This document shows, in pieces, positions 1-39,145 of a stretch of DNA of 39,145 bases. The stretch covers positions 1 through 39,145 of the IMG/VR virus record IMGVR_UViG_3300020061_000013; one strand, 5' to 3'. Each line of letters starts with the position of its first letter. The first letter of the stretch is position 1. The notes below the pieces were generated by a model. It made no database searches, was not told where the DNA came from, and worked only from the letters and a program-made list of their open reading frames with translations. Source of the DNA: a virus. The position numbers and the translations under genes are program-made.

Positions 1-97
1 CAGACGGTGCACCAGGGTCACATCGGCCCGACCTGCCGGGAAAAACGCTGAGAAGGGCACCACGACCCAACGGCTGAAAAACCCTTCGGTGGTATCT
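1..97. repeat. Inverted repeat copy, partner of 37454-37550
   Basis: These 97 bases are an exact reverse complement of 37454-37550. The match ends at base 98 (g here, where the partner would need c at 37453 but has a). It cannot be followed further left because the window begins here. Both copies code for the same stretch of the primase-helicase. In the terminal-repeat model this is the inner edge of the second, collapsed copy of a terminal inverted repeat of about 1.64 kb. Confidence 0.97.
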
Positions 98-2976: not shown

Positions 2977-3213
2977 TCACGATTTGGTAACGTTGTGTTT
3001 GCCCTGGTCAGACGGCCCTGACTCGATTAAATCAATTTCCGCATTGATCGCGTCCATAGCTGCACGGAGTAATCGATTAGCTCTTTCGCAGTCAGTAGGA
3101 CCGCCACGCAGGTAGCCATTTACTTGAACCTTAATGACACCGTTGTAATCCCAATCTAATTCATAACCAACAATATGCGGGTGATTCATTAAACTGGATG
3201 CAGCAAATCGCAT
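2977..3213 (-). CDS. Hypothetical protein
   Basis: 78 aa; ATG 3213 lies behind GAAAGGAAG and overlaps the end of the resolvase gene by 25 bases, so the two are probably co-translated. It has an N-terminal beta part (GYELDWDYNGVIKVQVNG) followed by a helix of about 30 residues. No recognised motif. Confidence 0.75.
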   Translation of the reverse strand: MRFAASSLMNHPHIVGYELDWDYNGVIKVQVNGYLRGGPTDCERANRLLRAAMDAINAEIDLIESGPSDQGKHNVTKS

Positions 3214-3812
3214 GGCTTCCTTTCATAACACGCGCAGTCCCAATGATCGTTTAGTGCGTCACGACGGCTGAGCTTCCATGGGTGTTTAGCTGATTCTTGT
3301 TTAAGCCGTCGCAAATACACGATGGCATGCTGCATAGCTGCGAATGCGTCCTTGCCTTTACCCGATGTGGACCAACTACCTTCAAACCCAAATTTCCTCA
3401 GACGAACAGGCGTGACGCTTGTGCGCATTTGCCGGGCTTGTAATTGGAACTTGATACCACGCCGCCAGCACTCCCACTCAGCTACTGCATTGATGCGCAC
3501 TGGACTCAATAGGTTCTTACCTCCAATCAACTGTGTTAGTTCGAAATCTTCAGCTAACATTGTCGCTCGACTGAATGGGGCTGCCGATTGCATTCTGTAG
3601 ATGAGAGCGGCGGTGCTTTCCAGTTGCTTCCGCTCATCGCCTGAGAATTCACCACACTCCCACGACTTGATATACCGTAAGACTTTGTTTTCAGGCCGAG
3701 TGAAAGCGTGAATGTCCACAATGAAGTAGGTCCAGCCGATGGTGCCGCCGGGGTCCAATGTGGACAAATGAAACTCGTTTGAGTTGGGTAGATCCGAGAA
3801 TGCGGGTTTCAT
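3189..3812 (-). CDS. RuvC-like Holliday junction resolvase
   Basis: 207 aa with an RNase H-like fold. LDPGGTIGW near residue 19 carries the first catalytic Asp. An acidic residue follows in LAEDFEL near residue 86. The C-terminal DAFAAMQHAIVYLRRL near residue 155 supplies the last Asp in the usual helix. Length and order fit phage RuvC-like nucleases that trim junctions and branched DNA before packaging. A C-terminal CACYERKPC cluster is additional. The start overlaps the preceding stop by four bases. Confidence 0.82.
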   Translation of the reverse strand: MKPAFSDLPNSNEFHLSTLDPGGTIGWTYFIVDIHAFTRPENKVLRYIKSWECGEFSGDERKQLESTAALIYRMQSAAPFSRATMLAEDFELTQLIGGKNLLSPVRINAVAEWECWRRGIKFQLQARQMRTSVTPVRLRKFGFEGSWSTSGKGKDAFAAMQHAIVYLRRLKQESAKHPWKLSRRDALNDHWDCACYERKPCDLLHPV

Positions 3813-4536: not shown

Positions 4537-5385
4537 TCACACCTTTTGCAAATAACCGTGGCCCCACGACCTACCGTAAACTTTACCGCTTGCTGTGATA
4601 GGCACTCCCATAAATTCGGTGGTCATGACCTCCGCATATCGGTCAGCTAGATATTGCGCTTTCTTTTTGGGGCCCTGCCCTAATGCCTCATCGTGAATAA
4701 CCAACAGGACTGTAGGCCACAACTCCGGGTCTTTCCGAAGATCCAACAAACCGCGTTTCATAATGTCGGCCGCGCTCGATTGCACCTTGTAATTCACCAC
4801 TGTGTAAGGCTTCTCGGCATCTACGATCAGTCGCCTACCAAATGGTGTGGTGGCATAGCCTATCTTTCTGTAGCACAGTCGTTTGATCTCTAGCTGTACA
4901 GCCTTGCGCGCTGCTTTACCCTCCTGCGTGTCGTTTCGGAAAGCGAACATACGTTGCAGGAGAATTTTGTAGATCTTGTATTCTTCTGAGGACAGTGCGC
5001 TTCTCAGAATAGCCTCTTGCTCACGTCGGGCGAACGAAGTCAGAGCTGGGAACGACTGCTTGTAATCGGCGACTAGCTTGACCGCTTCCGCATATGGAAT
5101 GCCGTACCGCTCCGTCATGGTGCCGGCCGACCCGCCAAATGCGAATGTGAAGTTGATATTTTTGGAGCTAGTGTATTGGTCTGGTGAGTAGTCCTCTCCG
5201 AACAGTCGAGTAGCTGCGAGCTTGTGTAGGCTCTCCCCCCGCTTGGCTGCGTCGATCATTGATTGCTCGCCGGCCAAACCAGCAATCACCCGTAGCTCAA
5301 TCTGATCGTAGTCGGCCGTGAAGATCGACATGCCAGGGTCGGCGATAAAGCAACGGCGAACAGTGGCTGGACCTAGGAGCTTCAC
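4537..5385 (-). CDS. Family A DNA polymerase, separate palm/fingers subunit
   Basis: 282 aa from GTG 5385. It carries the polymerase active site only: motif A TADYDQIEL (Asp25), motif B SKNINF (Lys75, Phe79) and motif C VIHDEAL (His231-Asp232). The position matching E. coli Arg754 in the O helix reads Tyr71, and the Tyr766 position reads Phe83. Exonuclease and thumb are missing here and are encoded by the gene at 5873-7063. The break falls in the loop between the LQQLP motif and VRRCF, which normally are a few residues apart. The two products presumably reassemble into one polymerase. Confidence 0.9.
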   Translation of the reverse strand: MKLLGPATVRRCFIADPGMSIFTADYDQIELRVIAGLAGEQSMIDAAKRGESLHKLAATRLFGEDYSPDQYTSSKNINFTFAFGGSAGTMTERYGIPYAEAVKLVADYKQSFPALTSFARREQEAILRSALSSEEYKIYKILLQRMFAFRNDTQEGKAARKAVQLEIKRLCYRKIGYATTPFGRRLIVDAEKPYTVVNYKVQSSAADIMKRGLLDLRKDPELWPTVLLVIHDEALGQGPKKKAQYLADRYAEVMTTEFMGVPITASGKVYGRSWGHGYLQKV

Positions 5386-5404
5386 AGCTTAGTCACCCTT
5401 GACC

Positions 5405-5521
5405 CTAACCCTGCTTTGACCACAAGCAGAACACCCACCGTCCGATTTGGACGTACCATCCTTCGGGACAATGACCTATCGCAGCGGCACCAAAACCTTT
5501 CATTGTGCGGTAGCAGTTCAT
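5405..5521 (-). CDS. Tiny ORF between the two polymerase genes
   Basis: 38 aa; ATG 5521 overlaps the preceding stop as TGATG. It contains Cys3, HCPEGW near residue 17 and a hydrophobic WVFCLW end. The coupling supports expression, but it has no recognised family. With the neighbouring 119-aa ORF it fills the interval that splits the polymerase. Confidence 0.45.
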   Translation of the reverse strand: MNCYRTMKGFGAAAIGHCPEGWYVQIGRWVFCLWSKQG

Positions 5522-5880
5522 CAGTCGTCTTCCACATAACGGGGGAACCCGAGAAATCCAGCTTCCTTTTTTAACCCTGCCTCGTTCAACATGCGATCTT
5601 TAACCGTGTTCAAACGTAGACCGATCACTTGCTGCTTTAGGTGACTAATGTCTTGCTTCATAAGCTCGGCAGTCCAAGATTCATTCATCTCGGCGATTAA
5701 TTCATCCTTGGTCATCTCACGAATGAGTTTGTATTTCAACAGGTCATCGAAATCGTTACCGCTGTCGGTCATTTGAGGAGCACAACCTTCCCTTACTTCG
5801 TGCCGAATACCATAACCTAGTCTGTTAGGGCACCGGTTTTTAGAAGTGCACCAACCACGCCAATTACCGCTGTCAGTCAT
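5521..5880 (-). CDS. Hypothetical protein inside the polymerase split
   Basis: 119 aa from ATG 5880, which overlaps the end of the polymerase N-terminal gene (stop at 5873). The first 36 residues hold WRGWC, CPN and GC, a likely zinc-binding stretch. MTDSGN occurs at residue 1 and again at residue 37, so a second start at 5772 is possible and the gene may be a fusion of two small proteins. The rest is helical (TKDELIAEMNESW). No homing-endonuclease motif is visible. Confidence 0.65.
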   Translation of the reverse strand: MTDSGNWRGWCTSKNRCPNRLGYGIRHEVREGCAPQMTDSGNDFDDLLKYKLIREMTKDELIAEMNESWTAELMKQDISHLKQQVIGLRLNTVKDRMLNEAGLKKEAGFLGFPRYVEDD

Positions 5881-7063
5881 CAATGTCTCCCTGGTGGTCC
5901 TTAGTCGGTAGCTGCTGCAATGCTGGACCCGAGACACTCATCCGAGTTGTTCGAGCCTTGAGCGAATTGATGGAAGGGTGTACGCGGTCGTTCTCGTCTC
6001 GTTCCGCCAGGCAGTGCTCTGTGTAGGTCTCTCGCCGCTTTTCAAGCTGCTTGGCACCCAGCACCACTCGAATAAAACTGCGCACGCCCTCGTTCGTCTT
6101 GGGGTGCTTAGCCAGTTTGCGCAGTAGCTCAGCATCTGTTTTGTATTTACCATTCTCCGTTTTAATCCGGAGAGTGGCACCTAGCGTTATGAGCGCGGCA
6201 GCTATCTGGTCCCCGCTTTGAATATTCTCGCAACCATACTCCAGAGCAACCGCCCGTAGTTCTTTTGCTTTCTTCTCATAGGCATGATCCAATCGTTCGG
6301 TATAGTCTACGTCTAGTAGCAATGCACGGCGTTGTAACTCATCACATGCCCGAGCTACTTCCTTGTCGAAATGGTACAGCTCATAGTACTCACGCACGGC
6401 CGGTTGCATCTTGCGCCACAGTCGGTAAGTCAGCAATGGGTCGGCCGCCGCGTAGGCCACCATGGCGGGATGGTCCCAACTGATCAGCGCCCATCCTTCC
6501 GAGAGCTTGGCCTTTCGTACTTTAGGTAAGCCCTTACGTGGGCCCGATTTAAATACTTCACCCGGTATGGGAATAGTAATCGTCTTAAATGCTTCCTTGC
6601 GCGCCGCATCCCACTTACCCGCGTTCCTGTCCACATAGGTCTTAGCCAACTCCTCCAGCTTGTGCCCGGTGCCACCTTCGTCGCGACCACGACTGTCCAC
6701 ATGGTGCGCCGGAATGTAGGTCTCTCCTGCCATCACCACACCCGTGTCGTAGCCTAAATAGCAGTCTATCGACCGTATGTCATGCGATCCATTGTGGCCA
6801 ATAAGCTTGGTAGGCTGCTTAATAGCCCATGATATGAAAGTGCGCCATCTCGCGGGGACAACGTAACTGTCACAGTCGTTACCCCATTGAACGGTTCGTA
6901 GTTTCCACCCGATTCGATAGGAATTAATTCCGGTAGATTCGGTGTCAAGGGCCAGACTTCCACTGTCGCGGATGAAATCTCGTACTTCTCGCAAGTCCTC
7001 TTTGGACTGAACCCCATGGAATCTAACCTCCTCACCGCACAGGGTGTCACGAATTCGGATCAT
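5873..7063 (-). CDS. Family A DNA polymerase, separate exonuclease/thumb subunit
   Basis: 396 aa. The 3'-5' exonuclease domain has its motifs intact: Exo I LALDTES (Asp40, Glu42), Exo II GHNGSHD (Asp95), Exo III YAAAD (Tyr204, Asp208). Residues after about 230 form the thumb and the start of the polymerase domain up to RMSVSGPALQQLP. The protein then ends in KDHQGDIDD, just before motif A would be expected. The palm and fingers are encoded separately at 4537-5385. It overlaps the glycosylase gene upstream by 17 bases. Proofreading should be active; polymerisation needs the partner. Confidence 0.9.
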   Translation of the reverse strand: MIRIRDTLCGEEVRFHGVQSKEDLREVRDFIRDSGSLALDTESTGINSYRIGWKLRTVQWGNDCDSYVVPARWRTFISWAIKQPTKLIGHNGSHDIRSIDCYLGYDTGVVMAGETYIPAHHVDSRGRDEGGTGHKLEELAKTYVDRNAGKWDAARKEAFKTITIPIPGEVFKSGPRKGLPKVRKAKLSEGWALISWDHPAMVAYAAADPLLTYRLWRKMQPAVREYYELYHFDKEVARACDELQRRALLLDVDYTERLDHAYEKKAKELRAVALEYGCENIQSGDQIAAALITLGATLRIKTENGKYKTDAELLRKLAKHPKTNEGVRSFIRVVLGAKQLEKRRETYTEHCLAERDENDRVHPSINSLKARTTRMSVSGPALQQLPTKDHQGDIDD

Positions 7064-7760
7064 GTCTGATCACATCATCTGGAATTATGCCAGGCTCTAG
7101 CGATGTACGTTTGAGGCCAAGCCGTTTAGCGGATAGATGTAGCTCATCAATCAGCGCGTGGTATGGGTCCGAAAGCCATTCACCGAATACATCCCACTGT
7201 TCTTCAATCTGTGGAATCGCACTTTTATTGCGCAGGCCAAACGACGGATGGATCATGGGCCAGATAGCCAGGCGTCGCCCTTCCTGGCTCGTCTTGAATA
7301 TCGGAGTGCCAGCCATCTTCAAGATAGACAGCTTTCGCCCCATAATCGCGCCTAACGCCACACCGCCCACGGGCACTATGATACGCGGCCTACCCACCGC
7401 CACCCACTCAGCGCGCAAACCAGAGCGTGCCACGGTGATCTCCTGAGGCAGTGGAGTGCGGTTGCGCGGCGGTCTGAAATGCACAACGTTGGTCAGCCAA
7501 CAATTAGGCTTACCGAAGTGCGGAGTCAACCCAGTGAACAACCCGACTCCTGCCATAAGGTCCCGAAGCACGCGACCAGCCGCGCCTACGAACGGTCGCT
7601 TATAGATCTCCTCCTGAGCGCCAGGAGCCTCACCCACAATCATCACCTGTGGGTTGTCGCCCTCTCCTGGCACATAGACCTCAGACAGGTTTGGGAAAAT
7701 GGCGCGCCATCCATGATTCCAATCGGATAGCTCATCGAGCATTTCATGATCAACTGCCAT
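7047..7760 (-). CDS. Uracil-DNA glycosylase, family 4-like
   Basis: 237 aa from ATG 7760, inside the end of the preceding gene; a frame open to 7925 has no ribosome site. Motif 1 is VGEAPGAQEE and motif 2 is IHPSFGLRN, as in family 4/5 glycosylases that remove uracil from DNA. The N-terminal cysteine ligands of the iron-sulfur cluster found in family 4 enzymes are absent; only one Cys (PNCWLTN) remains. The phage enzyme is therefore probably cluster-free. It sits directly before the polymerase exonuclease gene. Confidence 0.85.
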   Translation of the reverse strand: MAVDHEMLDELSDWNHGWRAIFPNLSEVYVPGEGDNPQVMIVGEAPGAQEEIYKRPFVGAAGRVLRDLMAGVGLFTGLTPHFGKPNCWLTNVVHFRPPRNRTPLPQEITVARSGLRAEWVAVGRPRIIVPVGGVALGAIMGRKLSILKMAGTPIFKTSQEGRRLAIWPMIHPSFGLRNKSAIPQIEEQWDVFGEWLSDPYHALIDELHLSAKRLGLKRTSLEPGIIPDDVIRHDPNS

Positions 7761-8142
7761 TTGGGAACACCCATTCAAAGAAACCCAGGATGAACCCTTC
7801 CTTTGTGTGCACCGGGCATTGGTCATGTAAAGTGCCTCGCCGCATGCGCCGCTTGGGCGGGTCAACCCACCCGGCACAATCGCACATCTGGTGGTCCTGT
7901 TTAGTGCAATAAGGATCAAAACCACTCATATGCACCAGGTTCGGGTGGTGGCATTCTGCACAGTTCTCGGTGTCTAACTCGACATCTTCCGGGTGGATGA
8001 TCCACTCGCATTTGCACCATTCGTTGGTGCGCTCCGTTTCCATCTTTGCTACATATTCCTCCACTAGCCCTAGCATTTGATCCTTAGCCATATGGAACAC
8101 GCCATCCACTAAGCCATTCTTGAACAAAGGATTAGCAACCAT
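7750..8142 (-). CDS. Cys/His-rich zinc protein
   Basis: 130 aa; ATG 8142 behind GAGGCGAGGAAA. Residues 1-40 are helical. From residue 43 there are many putative ligands: CKCEW, CAECHH, CTKQDHQMCDC and CPVH, enough for two or three zinc sites. Downstream it overlaps the uracil glycosylase start. Likely a nucleic-acid or protein-binding zinc protein of unknown role. Confidence 0.75.
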   Translation of the reverse strand: MVANPLFKNGLVDGVFHMAKDQMLGLVEEYVAKMETERTNEWCKCEWIIHPEDVELDTENCAECHHPNLVHMSGFDPYCTKQDHQMCDCAGWVDPPKRRMRRGTLHDQCPVHTKEGFILGFFEWVFPNGS

Positions 8143-8155
8143 TTTCCTCGCCTCT

Positions 8156-8401
8156 CTAGCGATTTAATTTCCGGCAACTATCGCAAGTGCACGCGGTAGT
8201 GTCTCCTGTATGGACGTGATGCAGAGTCCATTTACCGCAATGTAGGCAAGCGTGGACCATGATATAGGGCATGTTGGCAAATGCATGGGGTTGCATTTCT
8301 CCACATTGCGGACTGCAAAAATCGGACGCTCCGGTTATCCAATTCTCACAACCCTCCCTATAACAATGCTCCGCAATTCCTTGCATGTCTTCAATTGTCA
8401 T
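8156..8401 (-). CDS. Double zinc-ribbon small protein
   Basis: 81 aa; ATG 8401 overlaps the stop of the LysM-NlpC/P60 gene, behind AAAGAGGG. Cys pairs: CYREGC, CSPQC, CLHC and CTCDSC with interspersed His. It is one of about ten tiny Cys-rich proteins in this phage. Unknown function. Confidence 0.75.
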   Translation of the reverse strand: MTIEDMQGIAEHCYREGCENWITGASDFCSPQCGEMQPHAFANMPYIMVHACLHCGKWTLHHVHTGDTTACTCDSCRKLNR

Positions 8402-9225
8402 AACACCCTCTTTGCTCCTAGATAGTCACCGCCACCGCCAGCCGGTGCGGCCGCTGCCCGTACCACGTCGCCCGCTTGTGGGGCGTGAATCAATTGACCG
8501 CCACCGATGTAGAGAGCCACGTGATGAATCGAACTAGCGCTAGACCCGTAGAAAAGTAAATCACCCGGTGCCCACTGTCCATATGCGACGGAGCTACCCA
8601 CGGTGTACTGAGCGCGAGAGGTTCGTGGGAGCGTCACACCAGCCTGGCGGAACGCTGCGACCATCAAACCTGAGCAATCCCAACTGTTAGGGCCGTTACC
8701 TGCCCACACGTAAGGATCACCTAATTGGGCCTTAGCAAAGCTAATTACGATTCCAGCAGCGCTACTAACTGAATTGATTGGAGCCGCGTTGGCGGTTATT
8801 GCTGGCTGAGTTAATGGGGGTGCTATACATGTGCCGGTGCCGGGTTTGTGGATGATTTGACCGATAGAAATTCGATTCGGATTGCTGATACCGCTGCACC
8901 GGGCAAGCTCAGAAAAATTTGATTTTAATGCTGGTGCAATTGCTGACAAGGTGTCGCCAGATTTAATTACATATTTATTGACTGTCCACACGGGACCGAT
9001 AGGCGGAGGAGGCACTGCGGTGAACGTCTGGACGGGTGCCACGGGCTTGATAGGCTTAGGCTGACGGTACAGTCCAAACGGTACCGGCACCGTCTGATTA
9101 TGTCGAGGTTCATCGGCCGTTTCGGGCCCCGCACTAACCGAATGTGTAGCTTCAACAATAGGCGCTACCGTTAGCATTAATGCAATGACCAGCACGGCAA
9201 CAATAGAAATGCGACGGGATAGCAT
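8398..9225 (-). CDS. Secreted LysM + NlpC/P60 peptidoglycan hydrolase
   Basis: 275 aa; ATG 9225 behind GAAAGGTAG. Residues 1-26 form a signal peptide (basic start, then a VAVLVIALMLTV-type core). A Pro-rich linker follows, then a LysM repeat near residues 85-130 (YVIKSGDTLSAIA, NRISIGQIIH), which binds glycan. The NlpC/P60 endopeptidase domain covers about 155-275: catalytic Cys in WDCSGL, His in IHHVALYIGG, third residue in LIHAP. It would cut stem peptides outside the membrane. Its place among replication genes, far from the lysis cassette at 20.5-21.6 kb, is unusual. It may help early host wall remodelling or be a second lysin exported by Sec. Confidence 0.88.
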   Translation of the reverse strand: MLSRRISIVAVLVIALMLTVAPIVEATHSVSAGPETADEPRHNQTVPVPFGLYRQPKPIKPVAPVQTFTAVPPPPIGPVWTVNKYVIKSGDTLSAIAPALKSNFSELARCSGISNPNRISIGQIIHKPGTGTCIAPPLTQPAITANAAPINSVSSAAGIVISFAKAQLGDPYVWAGNGPNSWDCSGLMVAAFRQAGVTLPRTSRAQYTVGSSVAYGQWAPGDLLFYGSSASSIHHVALYIGGGQLIHAPQAGDVVRAAAAPAGGGGDYLGAKRVL

Positions 9226-18947: not shown

Positions 18948-19080
18948 ACTCACCCGCTAATTAGTGGGCAAAGAAACAGGGTCTCGCAATTGAATTCGTA
19001 CCAACTACCCCTAGCGAAATTGTGGTTTCCAGTTATTCAGCTGTCCGGCCGGTCCAGCTTTAACTGTCCAAAGTCGCTAG

Positions 19081-19153
19081 TGCCCTTACCGGGATTCGAA
19101 CCCGGACTAAGCGCATTTTAAGTGCGCTGCCTCTGCCGTTGGGCTATAAGGGC
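19081..19153 (-). tRNA. tRNA-Leu(UAA) with short variable loop
   Basis: A 73-base cloverleaf: acceptor GCCCTTA/TAAGGGC with discriminator A, D arm GCC/GGC, anticodon stem GCGCA/TGCGC with loop CTTAAAA (anticodon UAA), and T arm CCGGG TTCGAAT CCCGG. UUA codons are used in phage genes, for example in the primase. The variable loop is only five bases, whereas bacterial tRNA-Leu normally has a long variable arm. CCA is not encoded. Confidence 0.92.
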
Positions 19154-35513: not shown

Positions 35514-36950
35514 CTACATAGCGATTTCGGTATATCGAGCATTCCCTCTGAGGTCGTGGTAAGCCGTATCATAGCGGTCGGTGTCCATACCGTGGTCATC
35601 CCGCTTCACTGGCTCATCCTGAACACGCCCGTCTTTGGACACCTTCCACACGTACGCGGGATATTCGTCCGCAGTGCACGTAGGCAGCAACTTGTCTACT
35701 AAGGACTGATCACGCTCTACTAAGGAATCACGCATAAGGAAAAACTTATCTTCCTTGATTCTTTGCTTATGTGCGTTGATTCCTTCGTAAACATTCTTGA
35801 TAGCTGGTTGAGTACCCAACCCCGTCTCATGCTCGAACGTCCGTCGCCCCTCGGCATCGTGATCACAAATGATGGCAGTCGGTAGCGGCTCTATCCACTT
35901 GCGACTAGTGTTGGTGCGATGCACTTTGTTGATGTGATCGTACCATTCCCGAGTTGTCTCGGGCGCGACAATGTCCATAATGGTCTTGGCATGCTCAGCC
36001 ACTGTCCTTTGTGTATGGTAGATCTCACGATACATGTAAATAGTTTCTGTCTCGGGATCTTGGGCATAGCACTTCAGTACAAATGGGTTTGTGAACCCAA
36101 AGTCAATACACCAATACCTAGGCCAGTCTTGCGGGAACGGGAGTTTATTGTCATCGTCGTCATATTCCCAGTCGAGAATGTGGTGGTATGCGTCGAATTC
36201 CTCATAGACAACTCCATCGGCACTAACCCACAACCCTAGTCGCAGGCGCTTGTGCCGCACCCCTGTGAGCTTATCTAGAATCCCGGTGATGTACTTGTCG
36301 CCTTGCTCAGTGAGTGTGCCGTCCTCATTGAACAGTCGCGGGTTGTCCTCGTGTCTTGATTCAATTAAACGTGTGGTGCCGTCATTGGCCCTTAGCTTAA
36401 GCCAGTGTTTATCGCCCGCTGGGTTGCAGTCCATCAACAACTGCTGAAATGAAATACGCCAGTTCCTAAGGCGGGTTTTGATCAGTTCAAGGTCATCTAA
36501 CGTGATCTCGGTAGCTTCCTGAACATACACAATGTCGTAGTCGGAAGACATAATGCGTGTTGGTTTGTCCAGACCACCAATGGTCACAGTGGAACCGTTC
36601 TTAAATCGATACTGTGGTGCTTCCTCTTGTGACCCTCCATAGTAGACAACCGTGCCCGTCTCTAATGCTTCCTTGATTACGTGGTTTCGCCACGTGACCA
36701 GGGCAGTGGACCCTAAGCTAGAGAGCGTCTTACGGCAGAAGAGTGCTCGCACGTTGGGTGTGGCCAGGCATACCGCGAATATCTTTTCTAGGCAGGCTCG
36801 TGACTTCCCCGTGCCCGCCGGGCCCGAGACCAGCACTTCTGGCTCTCTGGCTTCAAAGATCTTCTTACAACCACCACGGGGTTTGTATTCGTGAACCCGC
36901 TTAGTGCCCGTGGCCTTTCGCTTATTCTTTAATGAATTAACCATGATCAT
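35514..36950 (-). CDS. Terminase large subunit
   Basis: 478 aa; ATG 36950 (36944 also possible) with TAAGTAAGG upstream. Walker A is SGPAGTGKS near residue 42, Walker B YDIVYVQEAT near residue 140. The C-terminal RNase H-like nuclease has CIDFGFTNP (first Asp), IICDHDAEGRR (second) and DDHGMDTDRYD (third). It packages DNA with ATP and cuts the genome. It is adjacent to the small subunit gene. The length is within the usual range. Confidence 0.92.
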   Translation of the reverse strand: MIMVNSLKNKRKATGTKRVHEYKPRGGCKKIFEAREPEVLVSGPAGTGKSRACLEKIFAVCLATPNVRALFCRKTLSSLGSTALVTWRNHVIKEALETGTVVYYGGSQEEAPQYRFKNGSTVTIGGLDKPTRIMSSDYDIVYVQEATEITLDDLELIKTRLRNWRISFQQLLMDCNPAGDKHWLKLRANDGTTRLIESRHEDNPRLFNEDGTLTEQGDKYITGILDKLTGVRHKRLRLGLWVSADGVVYEEFDAYHHILDWEYDDDDNKLPFPQDWPRYWCIDFGFTNPFVLKCYAQDPETETIYMYREIYHTQRTVAEHAKTIMDIVAPETTREWYDHINKVHRTNTSRKWIEPLPTAIICDHDAEGRRTFEHETGLGTQPAIKNVYEGINAHKQRIKEDKFFLMRDSLVERDQSLVDKLLPTCTADEYPAYVWKVSKDGRVQDEPVKRDDHGMDTDRYDTAYHDLRGNARYTEIAM

Positions 36951-36952
36951 CC

Positions 36953-37402
36953 TTACTTAAGATCACCGATGTCTACTCCCTGCATGTCTACACTAAGAGA
37001 GTCAATGCCGCTCTCACCCGATCCTCTGTGGAGCAACTGACCTAACTCATTAGCTGCGGCTACCATATAGAAGCGTAGTTCTCTTAGGACAGTGGCGTCT
37101 GTGGTGCCGTCCTTGGCAGCCTCATATAGCTTATCTGCCACGACTTGGTAGCGACTAAGCCTCTCTACCTTCTTACCTATCCAAAGGTCGCTCAGTTGGC
37201 TTGGGGTAACAGCATTGGTATCTTCCTCACTAGCCTTGGCCTCCTCTCTTACTCTCACTAGTAATGCTTTGTTCTCTTCTACAAAGGACTGTAGCTCTGG
37301 GATAGTGAGGCCGTACCACCCGGCGAGTTGCTTAGTGGTGCCTTCCCTAGTAGCTATCGCATTGATAAGCAATTGCTCGTCCGCTGGTGTGAGGTCATCC
37401 AT
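36953..37402 (-). CDS. Terminase small subunit (probable)
   Basis: 149 aa from ATG 37402. A longer frame reaching GTG 37462 would run into the inverted repeat and is not favoured. N-terminal helix-turn-helix-like part (MDDLTPADEQLLINAIATREGTTKQLAGWYGLTIPEL), then helices. Position before the large terminase supports the call. The gene begins only 51 bases from the repeat junction at 37454. Confidence 0.72.
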   Translation of the reverse strand: MDDLTPADEQLLINAIATREGTTKQLAGWYGLTIPELQSFVEENKALLVRVREEAKASEEDTNAVTPSQLSDLWIGKKVERLSRYQVVADKLYEAAKDGTTDATVLRELRFYMVAAANELGQLLHRGSGESGIDSLSVDMQGVDIGDLK

Positions 37403-37453
37403 AAACGGAAGAGCATAGCACCCCCATTCCTTATTGGATTGAAACCACGTCAA

Positions 37454-37922
37454 AGATACCACCGAAGGGTTTTTCAGCCGTTGGGTCGTGGTGCCCTTCT
37501 CAGCGTTTTTCCCGGCAGGTCGGGCCGATGTGACCCTGGTGCACCGTCTGACGTCTCAGGCGAATTTACAGGGCCTGTTGCGAGGTGCTGTGGGTGGGCT
37601 GCAACAGGTCATGCGTCGCGGGGCCTTCACACTCCCGCCATCTGTCGCCAACGCAACGCACAGGTTCAAGATGGAAGCCGACCCTATCCGGGGGTTCATA
37701 GAGGAAAGGCTAGAGAGCGTTAGCAGCAACGCTGCTTTCATACCACGCGCTGATGTCTATAACGCATACACGACGTGGGCCGTGCTCAAAGGCTTCCACC
37801 AGATGAGCGCTCAACGCTTCTATGAATCATTCGTCGCGGCCGCAGTGGACGCGGTGCGTTACCCGATAGTCGAGACTAAGCGGACGGGTGTGCGGGGGTT
37901 CGCAGGGATTGTATTGATCTAA
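37454..37922 (+). pseudogene. C-terminal part of primase-helicase gene (this copy lacks its start)
   Basis: Open from 37455 in the primase frame to TAA 37922. The first 32 codons duplicate the last codons of the minus-strand gene, and 123 new codons follow (TSQANLQGLL..., PIRGFIEERL, FIPRADVYNAYTTWA, FYESFVAAAVDAVRYP). That is the usual C-terminal domain of D5/P4-type primases. In the collapsed-repeat model it completes the gene at one end and is a dead fragment at the other end. GTG 37488 has no ribosome site. Confidence 0.85.
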
Positions 37923-37948
37923 GGAATTTGTCGTAAGAATTTTATTGG

Positions 37949-38003
37949 AAAAAGTGCGGCTGACTTCTGTGTGATTCACATGGAATTCGGCCGTACTTTT
38001 TTT
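37949..38003 (+). terminator. Intrinsic terminator after primase gene
   Basis: AAAAAGTGCGGC pairs with GCCGTACTTTTT (one G-U), ending in TTTTTTT on the plus strand. It lies 27 bases after the primase stop. A smaller internal pair (TGTGTGATTCACA) sits in the loop. Confidence 0.8.
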
Positions 38004-38175
38004 GTGCAAAAATTGTGTGTGATTCATTAGAAACTTTTTGCGAAAAATTATCACGAGAAATTCTGTGTGAATCTGCAGGAACTTTATTGAGGAAATTATT
38101 TGGAAAAGTTTGTGCGTATTCATGTGAAATATAATCGATAAATTTATTCTAATAAATATGTTGTGAAATACACTG

Positions 38176-38187
38176 TCCTATGTGGAG
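38176..38187 (+). promoter_or_regulatory. Operator-like repeat 1
   Basis: TCCTATGTGGAG, 11/12 to the TCCTAWGTGGAC consensus. It lies beside the large imperfect palindrome. Confidence 0.5.
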
Positions 38188-38188
38188 G

Positions 38189-38296
38189 GCAGGGCAGGGT
38201 TGGGGCCGATAGGGCAGGCGTTCTATATTGCATTATCGCTGGTCAAAGATAGAGCAATAGCGAATGCTTGCCCTTTCAGCCCCAAGCCTGCCCTGC
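38189..38296. repeat. Imperfect 108-bp palindrome
   Basis: The two 54-base arms match at 42 of 54 positions, with the outer 18 bases (GCAGGGCAGGGTTGGGGC vs GCAGGGCAGGCTTGGGGC) differing once and mismatches growing toward the centre. It includes several GGGCAGG words. It could be an origin, a telomere remnant or a protein-binding structure. It is too long and too interrupted for a simple terminator. Confidence 0.75.
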
Positions 38297-38363
38297 AAAT
38301 TCATTGATTGACCCATTGTGTATTTAAAAAGAATCTATTGTGTAATTGTAATTGGAATTAGAA

Positions 38364-38375
38364 TCCTAAGTAGAC
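38364..38375 (+). promoter_or_regulatory. Operator-like repeat 2, overlaps -35
   Basis: TCCTAAGTAGAC, 11/12 to the consensus. It covers the -35 box of the promoter at 38371-38398, a place where a bound protein would block polymerase. Confidence 0.55.
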
Positions 38376-38398
38376 AGTCCTTAATGTATTGTTATAAT
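38371..38398 (+). promoter_or_regulatory. Sigma-70-type promoter
   Basis: -35 TAGACA (38371-38376), 16-base spacer, -10 TATAAT (38393-38398). Reads toward the zinc-ribbon gene at 38600. It is overlapped by an operator-like repeat. Confidence 0.65.
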
Positions 38399-38415
38399 CG
38401 ATTTGCATTAGCAAA

Positions 38416-38427
38416 TCCTATGTGTAC
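38416..38427 (+). promoter_or_regulatory. Operator-like repeat 3
   Basis: TCCTATGTGTAC, 11/12 to the consensus, 18 bases after the -10 box at 38393-38398. Confidence 0.5.
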
Positions 38428-38560
38428 ATTAAAAAGAATACATTAAATAATGGAAAAGAATATAAAAAAGAATTCGAAATGAAATCAAAAATAAATAAAG
38501 TCCAAAAAGATTTTGGCTCGTTTTCGCACTCGGGAACAGACTTAGACTATTAAACCATCT

Positions 38561-38572
38561 GTCCACTTAGGA
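38561..38572 (-). promoter_or_regulatory. Operator-like repeat 4
   Basis: GTCCACTTAGGA, an exact reverse-complement match to TCCTAAGTGGAC. It lies just upstream of a TATGAT word and the start of the zinc-ribbon gene at 38600. Confidence 0.55.
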
Positions 38573-38599
38573 CTCCAGCCCATATGATAGGATCTCTCC

Positions 38600-38773
38600 A
38601 TGACACATCGCATAGGCAAGGTACCAACGGGACATTGTCCCGACTGTCAAAGAACTATTCACCTGCGTAAAAACGGTCTCATCGGCTCACACAGACGCCT
38701 ATACCCCAACGGCTACACCCGAGGGAACCACTGCACAGGTATTGGCAAGCCTCCCACCCCCGGGAATCAATAA
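38600..38773 (+). CDS. Small zinc-ribbon protein near the genome end
   Basis: 57 aa; ATG 38600 preceded by GATAGGATC. CPDC at residue 13, HLRKNGLIGSHRR in the middle and NHCTGIGKPPTPG at the end follow a pattern (CxxC, basic helix, H, C-x-G-x-G-x-P) that I recall from many short proteins of phages of Actinobacteria. Probably nucleic-acid binding. It lies on the plus strand and would be co-directional with all other genes once the inverted repeat is resolved. Confidence 0.78.
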   Translation: MTHRIGKVPTGHCPDCQRTIHLRKNGLIGSHRRLYPNGYTRGNHCTGIGKPPTPGNQ

Positions 38774-38891
38774 GTAATCGATTACCCGGCTTCCCACCCC
38801 CCGGATTAATCCGAGTCCTCAAAGGACACTGACCCGACACCCATACCCGGTAGGGGTATCCGCCTCCTGGTCTAGACCAATTTAATAGACT

Positions 38892-38903
38892 GTCCACAAA
38901 GGA
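38892..38903 (-). promoter_or_regulatory. Operator-like repeat 5
   Basis: GTCCACAAAGGA, reverse complement TCCTTTGTGGAC, 11/12 to the consensus. It lies 24 bases before repeat 6, in the opposite orientation. Confidence 0.5.
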
Positions 38904-38926
38904 CCAACCGCCTTCACGAATTAGAA

Positions 38927-38938
38927 TCCTATGTGGAC
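38927..38938 (+). promoter_or_regulatory. Operator-like repeat 6
   Basis: TCCTATGTGGAC, exact consensus. It lies about 110 bases before the terminal palindrome. Confidence 0.55.
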
Positions 38939-39047
38939 ACCCACGAATTAATGCATTAAAAAGAATGCTAAAACAAATCAATTAAAAACAATACAAAATA
39001 ACAACAAAAGAATAACAAATCAATTAAAAAGAATAGGAAACCGCCCG

Positions 39048-39145
39048 AAAAATCAATAAAAAGCGCGAAATACAAAATACACGCTGACTATAGACTAGTC
39101 TATAGTCAGCGTGTATTTTGTATTTCGCGCTTTTTATTGATTTTT
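39048..39145. repeat. Perfect 98-bp terminal palindrome (candidate hairpin telomere)
   Basis: Bases 39048-39096 are the exact reverse complement of 39097-39145; the centre reads GACT|AGTC with no spacer. The window ends where the palindrome ends, so it may continue. Reading through a covalently closed hairpin end, or through a head-to-head junction of two identical ends, would give this. A fold-back assembly error would too. Confidence 0.95.

Follow-up and report, generated by a model that had tools for sequence, protein, structure and literature searches.

To our knowledge and according to our literature searches, the genomes of tailed phages end in cos sites, by pac or headful packaging, in direct repeats or in a Mu-like manner, or are protein-capped in the relatives of phi29, and hairpins are known in tailed phages only from the intracellular plasmid form of the N15-type phages. 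Poxviruses such as vaccinia and fowlpox carry inverted terminal repeats (ITRs) with hairpin ends, the loops of which are imperfectly paired, and encode a D5-type primase–helicase, a RuvC-fold resolvase, and a uracil-DNA glycosylase (UDG). The rudiviruses SIRV1 and SIRV2 have linear genomes with hairpin ends and kilobase-scale ITRs, which are about 1.6 kb long in SIRV2. Resolution of rudivirus concatemers by a Holliday-junction resolvase has been proposed, and SIRV2 Hjr converted concatemer junctions in vitro into nicked, ligatable hairpins, a scheme put forward for rudiviruses and poxviruses (PMC3157427). The tailed phages N15, PY54, phiKO2, and vB_YenS_P840 have hairpin-ended linear DNA in the cell; in this type, TelN processes telRL, a palindrome at an internal site, and it is the plasmid prophage that has the hairpins (PMC10612081). 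Long terminal inverted repeats with covalently closed hairpins were also found in the linear chromosome of 'Candidatus Phytoplasma mali' (PMC2459194), and the Streptomyces phage Dagobah has direct terminal repeats of 1,187 bp (PMC7650747).

We analyzed the whole 39,145-nt stretch of the IMG/VR virus record IMGVR_UViG_3300020061_000013, referred to as the window. PHROG matches to major head protein, head protease, portal, terminase, and tape measure place it in the Caudoviricetes with an HK97-type head. The closest cultured terminase relatives were Dagobah (45.6% identity) and the Thermobifida phage P1312 (54%), and the nearest cultured relatives of the phage infect Actinomycetota. Among those examined, Dagobah was the nearest one with known ends. 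Its terminal repeats lie beside the terminase as in the window but are direct, not inverted, which implies a switch of end type within a related packaging machinery; the record of P1312, unlike the window, is circular. With rudiviruses, the window shares a linear genome with kilobase-scale ITRs and, as we infer, hairpin ends, but rudiviruses are archaeal, non-tailed, and devoid of an HK97-type head or terminase, and SIRV2 Hjr is of the archaeal Hjc/Hje type, a nuclease family other than RuvC. With poxviruses, it shares ITRs, a D5-type primase–helicase, a RuvC fold, and a UDG, whereas these viruses are eukaryotic and do not package by a phage terminase. Common ancestry of the poxvirus ends and those of the window is not implied. 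The phytoplasma replicon differs in being a cellular chromosome with very large repeats and not a phage.

The initial annotation had claimed a perfect, spacer-free 98-bp palindrome at the end of the window, and this was confirmed, with two 49-nt arms and the turn at 39096/39097 (Table 1). As the second-longest perfect palindrome anywhere in the window has only 14 bp, a chance origin is excluded. A larger structure had been overlooked, however, namely a 1,643-bp ITR that carries the palindrome at its tip. The other long inverted repeat of the window is exact over 97 nt and ends exactly there (positions 1-97 versus 37454-37550).

Table 1. Features of the window that relate to genome ends, replication, and packaging.
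Feature	Position	Strand	Remark
Perfect palindrome, ITR tip read through the turn	39048..39145		length = k+1 of the assembly
Fold-back read-out past the turn, no added unique sequence	39097..39145		reverse complement of 39048-39096
ITR, right copy; left copy collapsed into it except for the innermost 97 nt	37454..39096	+	1,643 bp
Innermost 97 nt (=k) of the left ITR copy	1..97	-	exact reverse complement of 37454-37550
PrimPol/D5 primase-helicase, aa 1-679; runs on through the left ITR copy to 802 aa	1..2037	-	
Primase 3' part located in the ITR; inverted and truncated next to the terminase on the right, gene completed on the left	37455..37922	+	
RuvC-fold nuclease, candidate telomere/junction resolvase	3189..3812	-	
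PolA-type DNA polymerase, N-terminal half (3'-5' exonuclease)	5873..7063	-	
PolA-type DNA polymerase, C-terminal half	4537..5385	-	
Terminase large subunit (TerL)	35514..36950	-	
Putative terminase small subunit adjoining the ITR	36953..37462	-	position only, no family match
Conserved structured stem-loop of the ITR	38190..38300	+	covariation, covariance model

Together, the two lengths are the mark of assembly at k=97, in which neighboring unitigs share overlaps of length k and a path that meets its own reverse complement ends in a palindromic (k+1)-mer. We ran a toy assembly with k=97 on random sequence, using hairpin-ended and open-ended ITR molecules. The hairpin-ended molecule yielded a unique unitig with an ITR overlap of 97 nt at either end, and an ITR unitig that exceeded the ITR by 49 nt (1,692 nt) and had a 98-bp terminal palindrome, whereas the open-ended molecule gave no palindrome. 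The window matches this ITR unitig, as positions 37454-39145 comprise 1,692 nt, that is, 1,643+49, and 37,550+1,692-97 equals 39,145, the length of the window. As the same contig has the 97-nt inverted overlap and the toy assembly produced both numbers, the 98-bp length is the floor set by the assembly (k+1) and biologically uninformative; it is the position of the palindrome that is informative.

When the left end (minus strand) was joined through the overlap to position 37551, the primase ORF continued in frame to the stop at 37922 and was intact with 802 aa, showing that 37454-39096 is present at both ends in inverted orientation. The window is thus almost certainly the collapsed assembly of a linear genome with identical ITRs, the size of which would be 40,642 bp (about 40.6 kb), composed of the unique part 98-37453 (37,356 bp) and two ITRs of 1,643 bp. 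The repeats are identical and inverted, as in the scheme of poxviruses and rudiviruses, and not in direct orientation. That both lengths equal assembler constants could be taken to mean that a chimeric join and a chance palindrome had simulated the structure and that there is no ITR at all. However, the restored primase frame and the recurrence of the ITR in many independent assemblies, in one contig completely at both ends, refute this for the ITR, and we regard such a pure artefact as hardly credible. An invertible segment was also considered and rejected, as its tip would join unique flanks and not its own reverse complement, and as one relative (G005) has the repeat at both ends.

Relatives, which came from other soil datasets, were collected from IMG/VR with terminase and primase queries, which resulted in a clade of several dozen contigs with a terminase identity of at least 60%. 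A perfect ITR of 1,121 bp is present at the two contig ends of G005 (3300019884_000003, 41,130 bp), and G030 (3300049586_000042, 40,542 bp) likewise begins and ends with an inverted repeat, in this case of 127 bp. The primase segment from DTTEGFF onward was found on 19 terminase-side contig ends, as an inverted 3' fragment, and on 8 primase-side ends. Most of these contigs break about one usual k past the DTTEGFF codon, with overhangs, counted from one base before the boundary codon, of 77, 97, 99, 103, 123, 127, and 141 nt and a few at 120-124 nt. In dataset 3300025164, the primase-side and terminase-side contigs have exactly 99 nt in common, and a contig from another dataset (L003, 3300020060), which belongs to the species of the window by an exact match of 9,236 nt, breaks off 77 nt beyond the boundary. 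Between viruses, the coding part of the ITR shows about 20-32% divergence at the DNA level, yet the two copies in G005 are identical over 1,121 nt, which indicates that the copies are homogenized within a genome. A scan of a genome collection gave only terminase relatives of 33-54% identity, and no host or prophage was therefore found there.

In about 20 contigs, the inner ITR boundary (37454 in the window) coincides with the same primase codon, the Asp of DTTEGFF; the terminase-side flanks vary between most of the viruses, and the boundary codon is constant. We dropped the idea of a fixed enzymatic site, as the boundary of a more distant relative is shifted inward by 222 nt, and for the same reason the boundary is probably inherited rather than enzymatically fixed. 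As a separate observation, a subclade (L021, L065, L066, and L107, including 3300032144_000031 and 3300046719_000006) has a terminase-side end without the primase fragment and shows no inverted end overlap, and its contigs on the primase side extend 386-389 nt beyond the usual boundary codon before they stop. This subclade possibly has a different end arrangement.

A second turn-back was found in a related virus from another dataset. The contig of this virus, L019 (3300027927_000012), terminates in a perfect palindrome of 54 bp, which occupies the homologous tip of the ITR and, like the palindrome of the window, lies about 2 kb upstream of TerL. As a base rate, we inspected 121 ends of related IMG/VR contigs, among which that of L019 is the only one with a terminal palindrome of at least 12 bp (0 of the 120 others). 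Perfect turn-backs at the ITR tip are thus present in two viruses. They represent only two of the about seven contigs that reach deep into the ITR, and the remainder simply stop. An alignment of six ITRs, made to find a motif common to the tips, matched the primase part and the stem-loop but not the tips, and no motif shared by the two known tips was recognized. An exact search of viral contigs with the 30-nt tip of the window matched no other contig.

These tips could in principle be products of library preparation, generated by self-primed fill-in or template switching at the tip of an ITR genome with open or protein-capped ends. This would suit the five deep contigs that stop without a palindrome, and the AT-rich tip of L019 could self-prime. 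However, an overhang suited to self-priming is not obvious at the tip of the window, the turn at the ITR tip occurs in two independent datasets and at no other contig end, and an assembler should not keep a rare artefact as its path; we consider a library origin improbable. As for protein caps, phi29-like, PRD1-like, and other protein-primed viruses do have linear genomes with ITRs, as does the phage of the window, but fold-back tips are not expected in them, and the window has a PolA-type polymerase together with a PrimPol primase. The families found did not include a protein-primed polymerase of family B, and a terminal protein could be encoded by one of the short ORFs without assigned family.

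The presence of a hairpin telomere, which the initial annotation had suggested, is the most economical reading of a read-through tip, an ITR, and a second ITR-tip palindrome in a related virus, and from the sequence data, we consider hairpin-type ends quite probable. The proposed likeness to N15, PY54, and phiKO2 was not supported, although the sequence is consistent with hairpin-ended linear DNA in the cell. Instead of lying in an internal telRL palindrome next to telN, the turn is located at the tip of the 1,643-bp ITR, which contains a copy of the 3' end of the primase gene and adjoins the terminase genes. As had been noted already, no protelomerase-like tyrosine recombinase is detectable: neither the protelomerase profile PF16684 (ResT/TelK catalytic domain) nor the tyrosine recombinase/phage-integrase profile PF00589 matched anything in the window or in six relatives. 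The N15-type phages differ from the window in their protelomerase TelN, the short telRL, and the absence of a long ITR; they have cohesive virion ends and a temperate linear plasmid prophage. A telomere phage of this type, with protelomerase-made hairpins in the plasmid prophage and cos ends in the virion, would agree with a palindrome in a tailed phage, as N15 prophages are known hairpin replicons (PMC10612081), but it is contradicted by the gene content and by the position of the long ITR, and is extremely unlikely.

The guess that a telomere-forming enzyme would have to be new, small, or host-encoded still stands, and there is now a concrete phage-encoded candidate. Six relatives contain the replication end, and the RuvC-like ORF was kept in all of them, with the invariant acidic residues D20, E88, D155, and D192. 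The best Foldseek matches of its AlphaFold model (mean pLDDT 70) were RuvC structures with a probability of 1.0, and the fowlpox resolvase 6p7b was matched at a lower rank. Homologues in Gordonia phages are annotated as RuvC-like resolvase. As the Pfam RuvC model did not match the ORF, the assignment is based on the motif, the fold, and the annotated phage homologues. Similar RuvC-like proteins are present in ordinary actinophages, and the gene is therefore no marker of hairpin ends. We only tentatively propose that the predicted RuvC-like protein acts as a resolvase.

The phage further encodes a UDG, a SNF2-type helicase, a Sak4-like annealing protein, and an exonuclease; the product of 7047-7925 (-), a uracil-DNA glycosylase superfamily protein, is conserved in the clade. 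The gene of the PolA-type polymerase (4537-7063, -) consists of two ORFs, with the break between the LQQLP region and motif A. The halves are about 0.5 kb apart, and the same split occurs in five relatives with gaps of 0.5-1.2 kb. No Rfam intron matched the gap, and the split may reflect an intron, an intein, or a split protein.

We favor, with moderate confidence, a linear tailed-phage genome with identical ITRs, the tips of which turn back and are most likely covalently closed hairpins, in a cycle like that of poxviruses and rudiviruses. The gene set and the anatomy fit such an ITR, hairpin, and resolvase scheme better than the N15 scheme; covalent closure, the concatemer route, the role of the resolvase, and packaging are steps that we infer. 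In this cycle, a replisome of PrimPol/D5 primase–helicase and PolA-type polymerase would copy round the hairpins, which would generate concatemers in head-to-head and tail-to-tail arrangement, with perfect ITR/ITR' palindromes at the junctions. Such palindromic junctions could extrude as four-way junctions, which the RuvC-like nuclease of the phage would nick symmetrically, and a ligase would seal the nicked hairpins to give monomers with hairpin ends. The terminase, encoded beside one ITR, would package the units, and recombination or copying between the ends would keep both ITRs identical. Points against this explanation are the majority of deep-ITR contigs without a fold-back tip, the direct repeats of Dagobah, and two long relatives (G019 and 3300046719_000006) in which there was no inverted overlap between the contig ends.

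Alternatively, an ITR genome could form head-to-head concatemers only, the junctions of which would be cut by terminase or another nuclease to leave open virion ends, either blunt or staggered. Head-to-head concatemer junctions would give the same reads as covalently closed ends, and the short-read graph would be the same. TerL has retained its invariant acidic residues throughout the clade, as would equally be expected with ordinary end cutting, and a Dagobah-type terminase yields defined ends in a relative. However, the head-to-head joining itself requires a hairpin, fold-back, or end-fusion intermediate, and perfect multi-kilobase palindromes are unstable in bacteria. We consider this alternative unlikely.

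In the open-access literature searched, we found no description of a tailed phage with ITRs plus hairpins. It is conceivable, although we put this forward with reservation, that a tailed-phage lineage recurring in soil has virion genomes with kilobase-long ITRs and with hairpin telomeres made by a RuvC-type resolvase on concatemer junctions, without protelomerase, and possibly with a terminase that packages DNA without a free end. If true, phages with long ITRs and tips that fold back would represent a further end type among tailed phages. How a terminase deals with hairpin-ended or palindromic DNA would then become a question, and the hairpin/ITR mechanism, which has been studied in poxviruses and rudiviruses, would become accessible in bacterial systems. 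The combination of an inverted overlap of length k and a terminal palindrome of k+1 could serve as a practical signature for hairpin-ended genomes in short-read assemblies.

The ITR also contains an imperfect stem-loop of about 110 nt, in which two-sided compensating changes were found at 12 of 34 pairs in five viruses. Beyond the training set, its covariance model matched in the terminal regions of four further contigs (L109, L026, L011, and L068), and weakly in that of L016, but not in the more distant terminase relatives searched, including Dagobah and P1312, and the stem-loop had no Rfam match at the gathering threshold. Possible roles are those of a replication origin, a packaging signal, or a transcription terminator. 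Pfam gave nothing at the curated cut-off for ten small ORFs without assigned function, and Rfam matched only a tRNA in the whole window. A tRNA-Leu (UAA) gene is located at 19080-19153 (-), and 8398-9225 (-) codes for a LysM-like and NlpC/P60-like protein with a signal-like N-terminus, which is probably an endolysin or cell-wall hydrolase.
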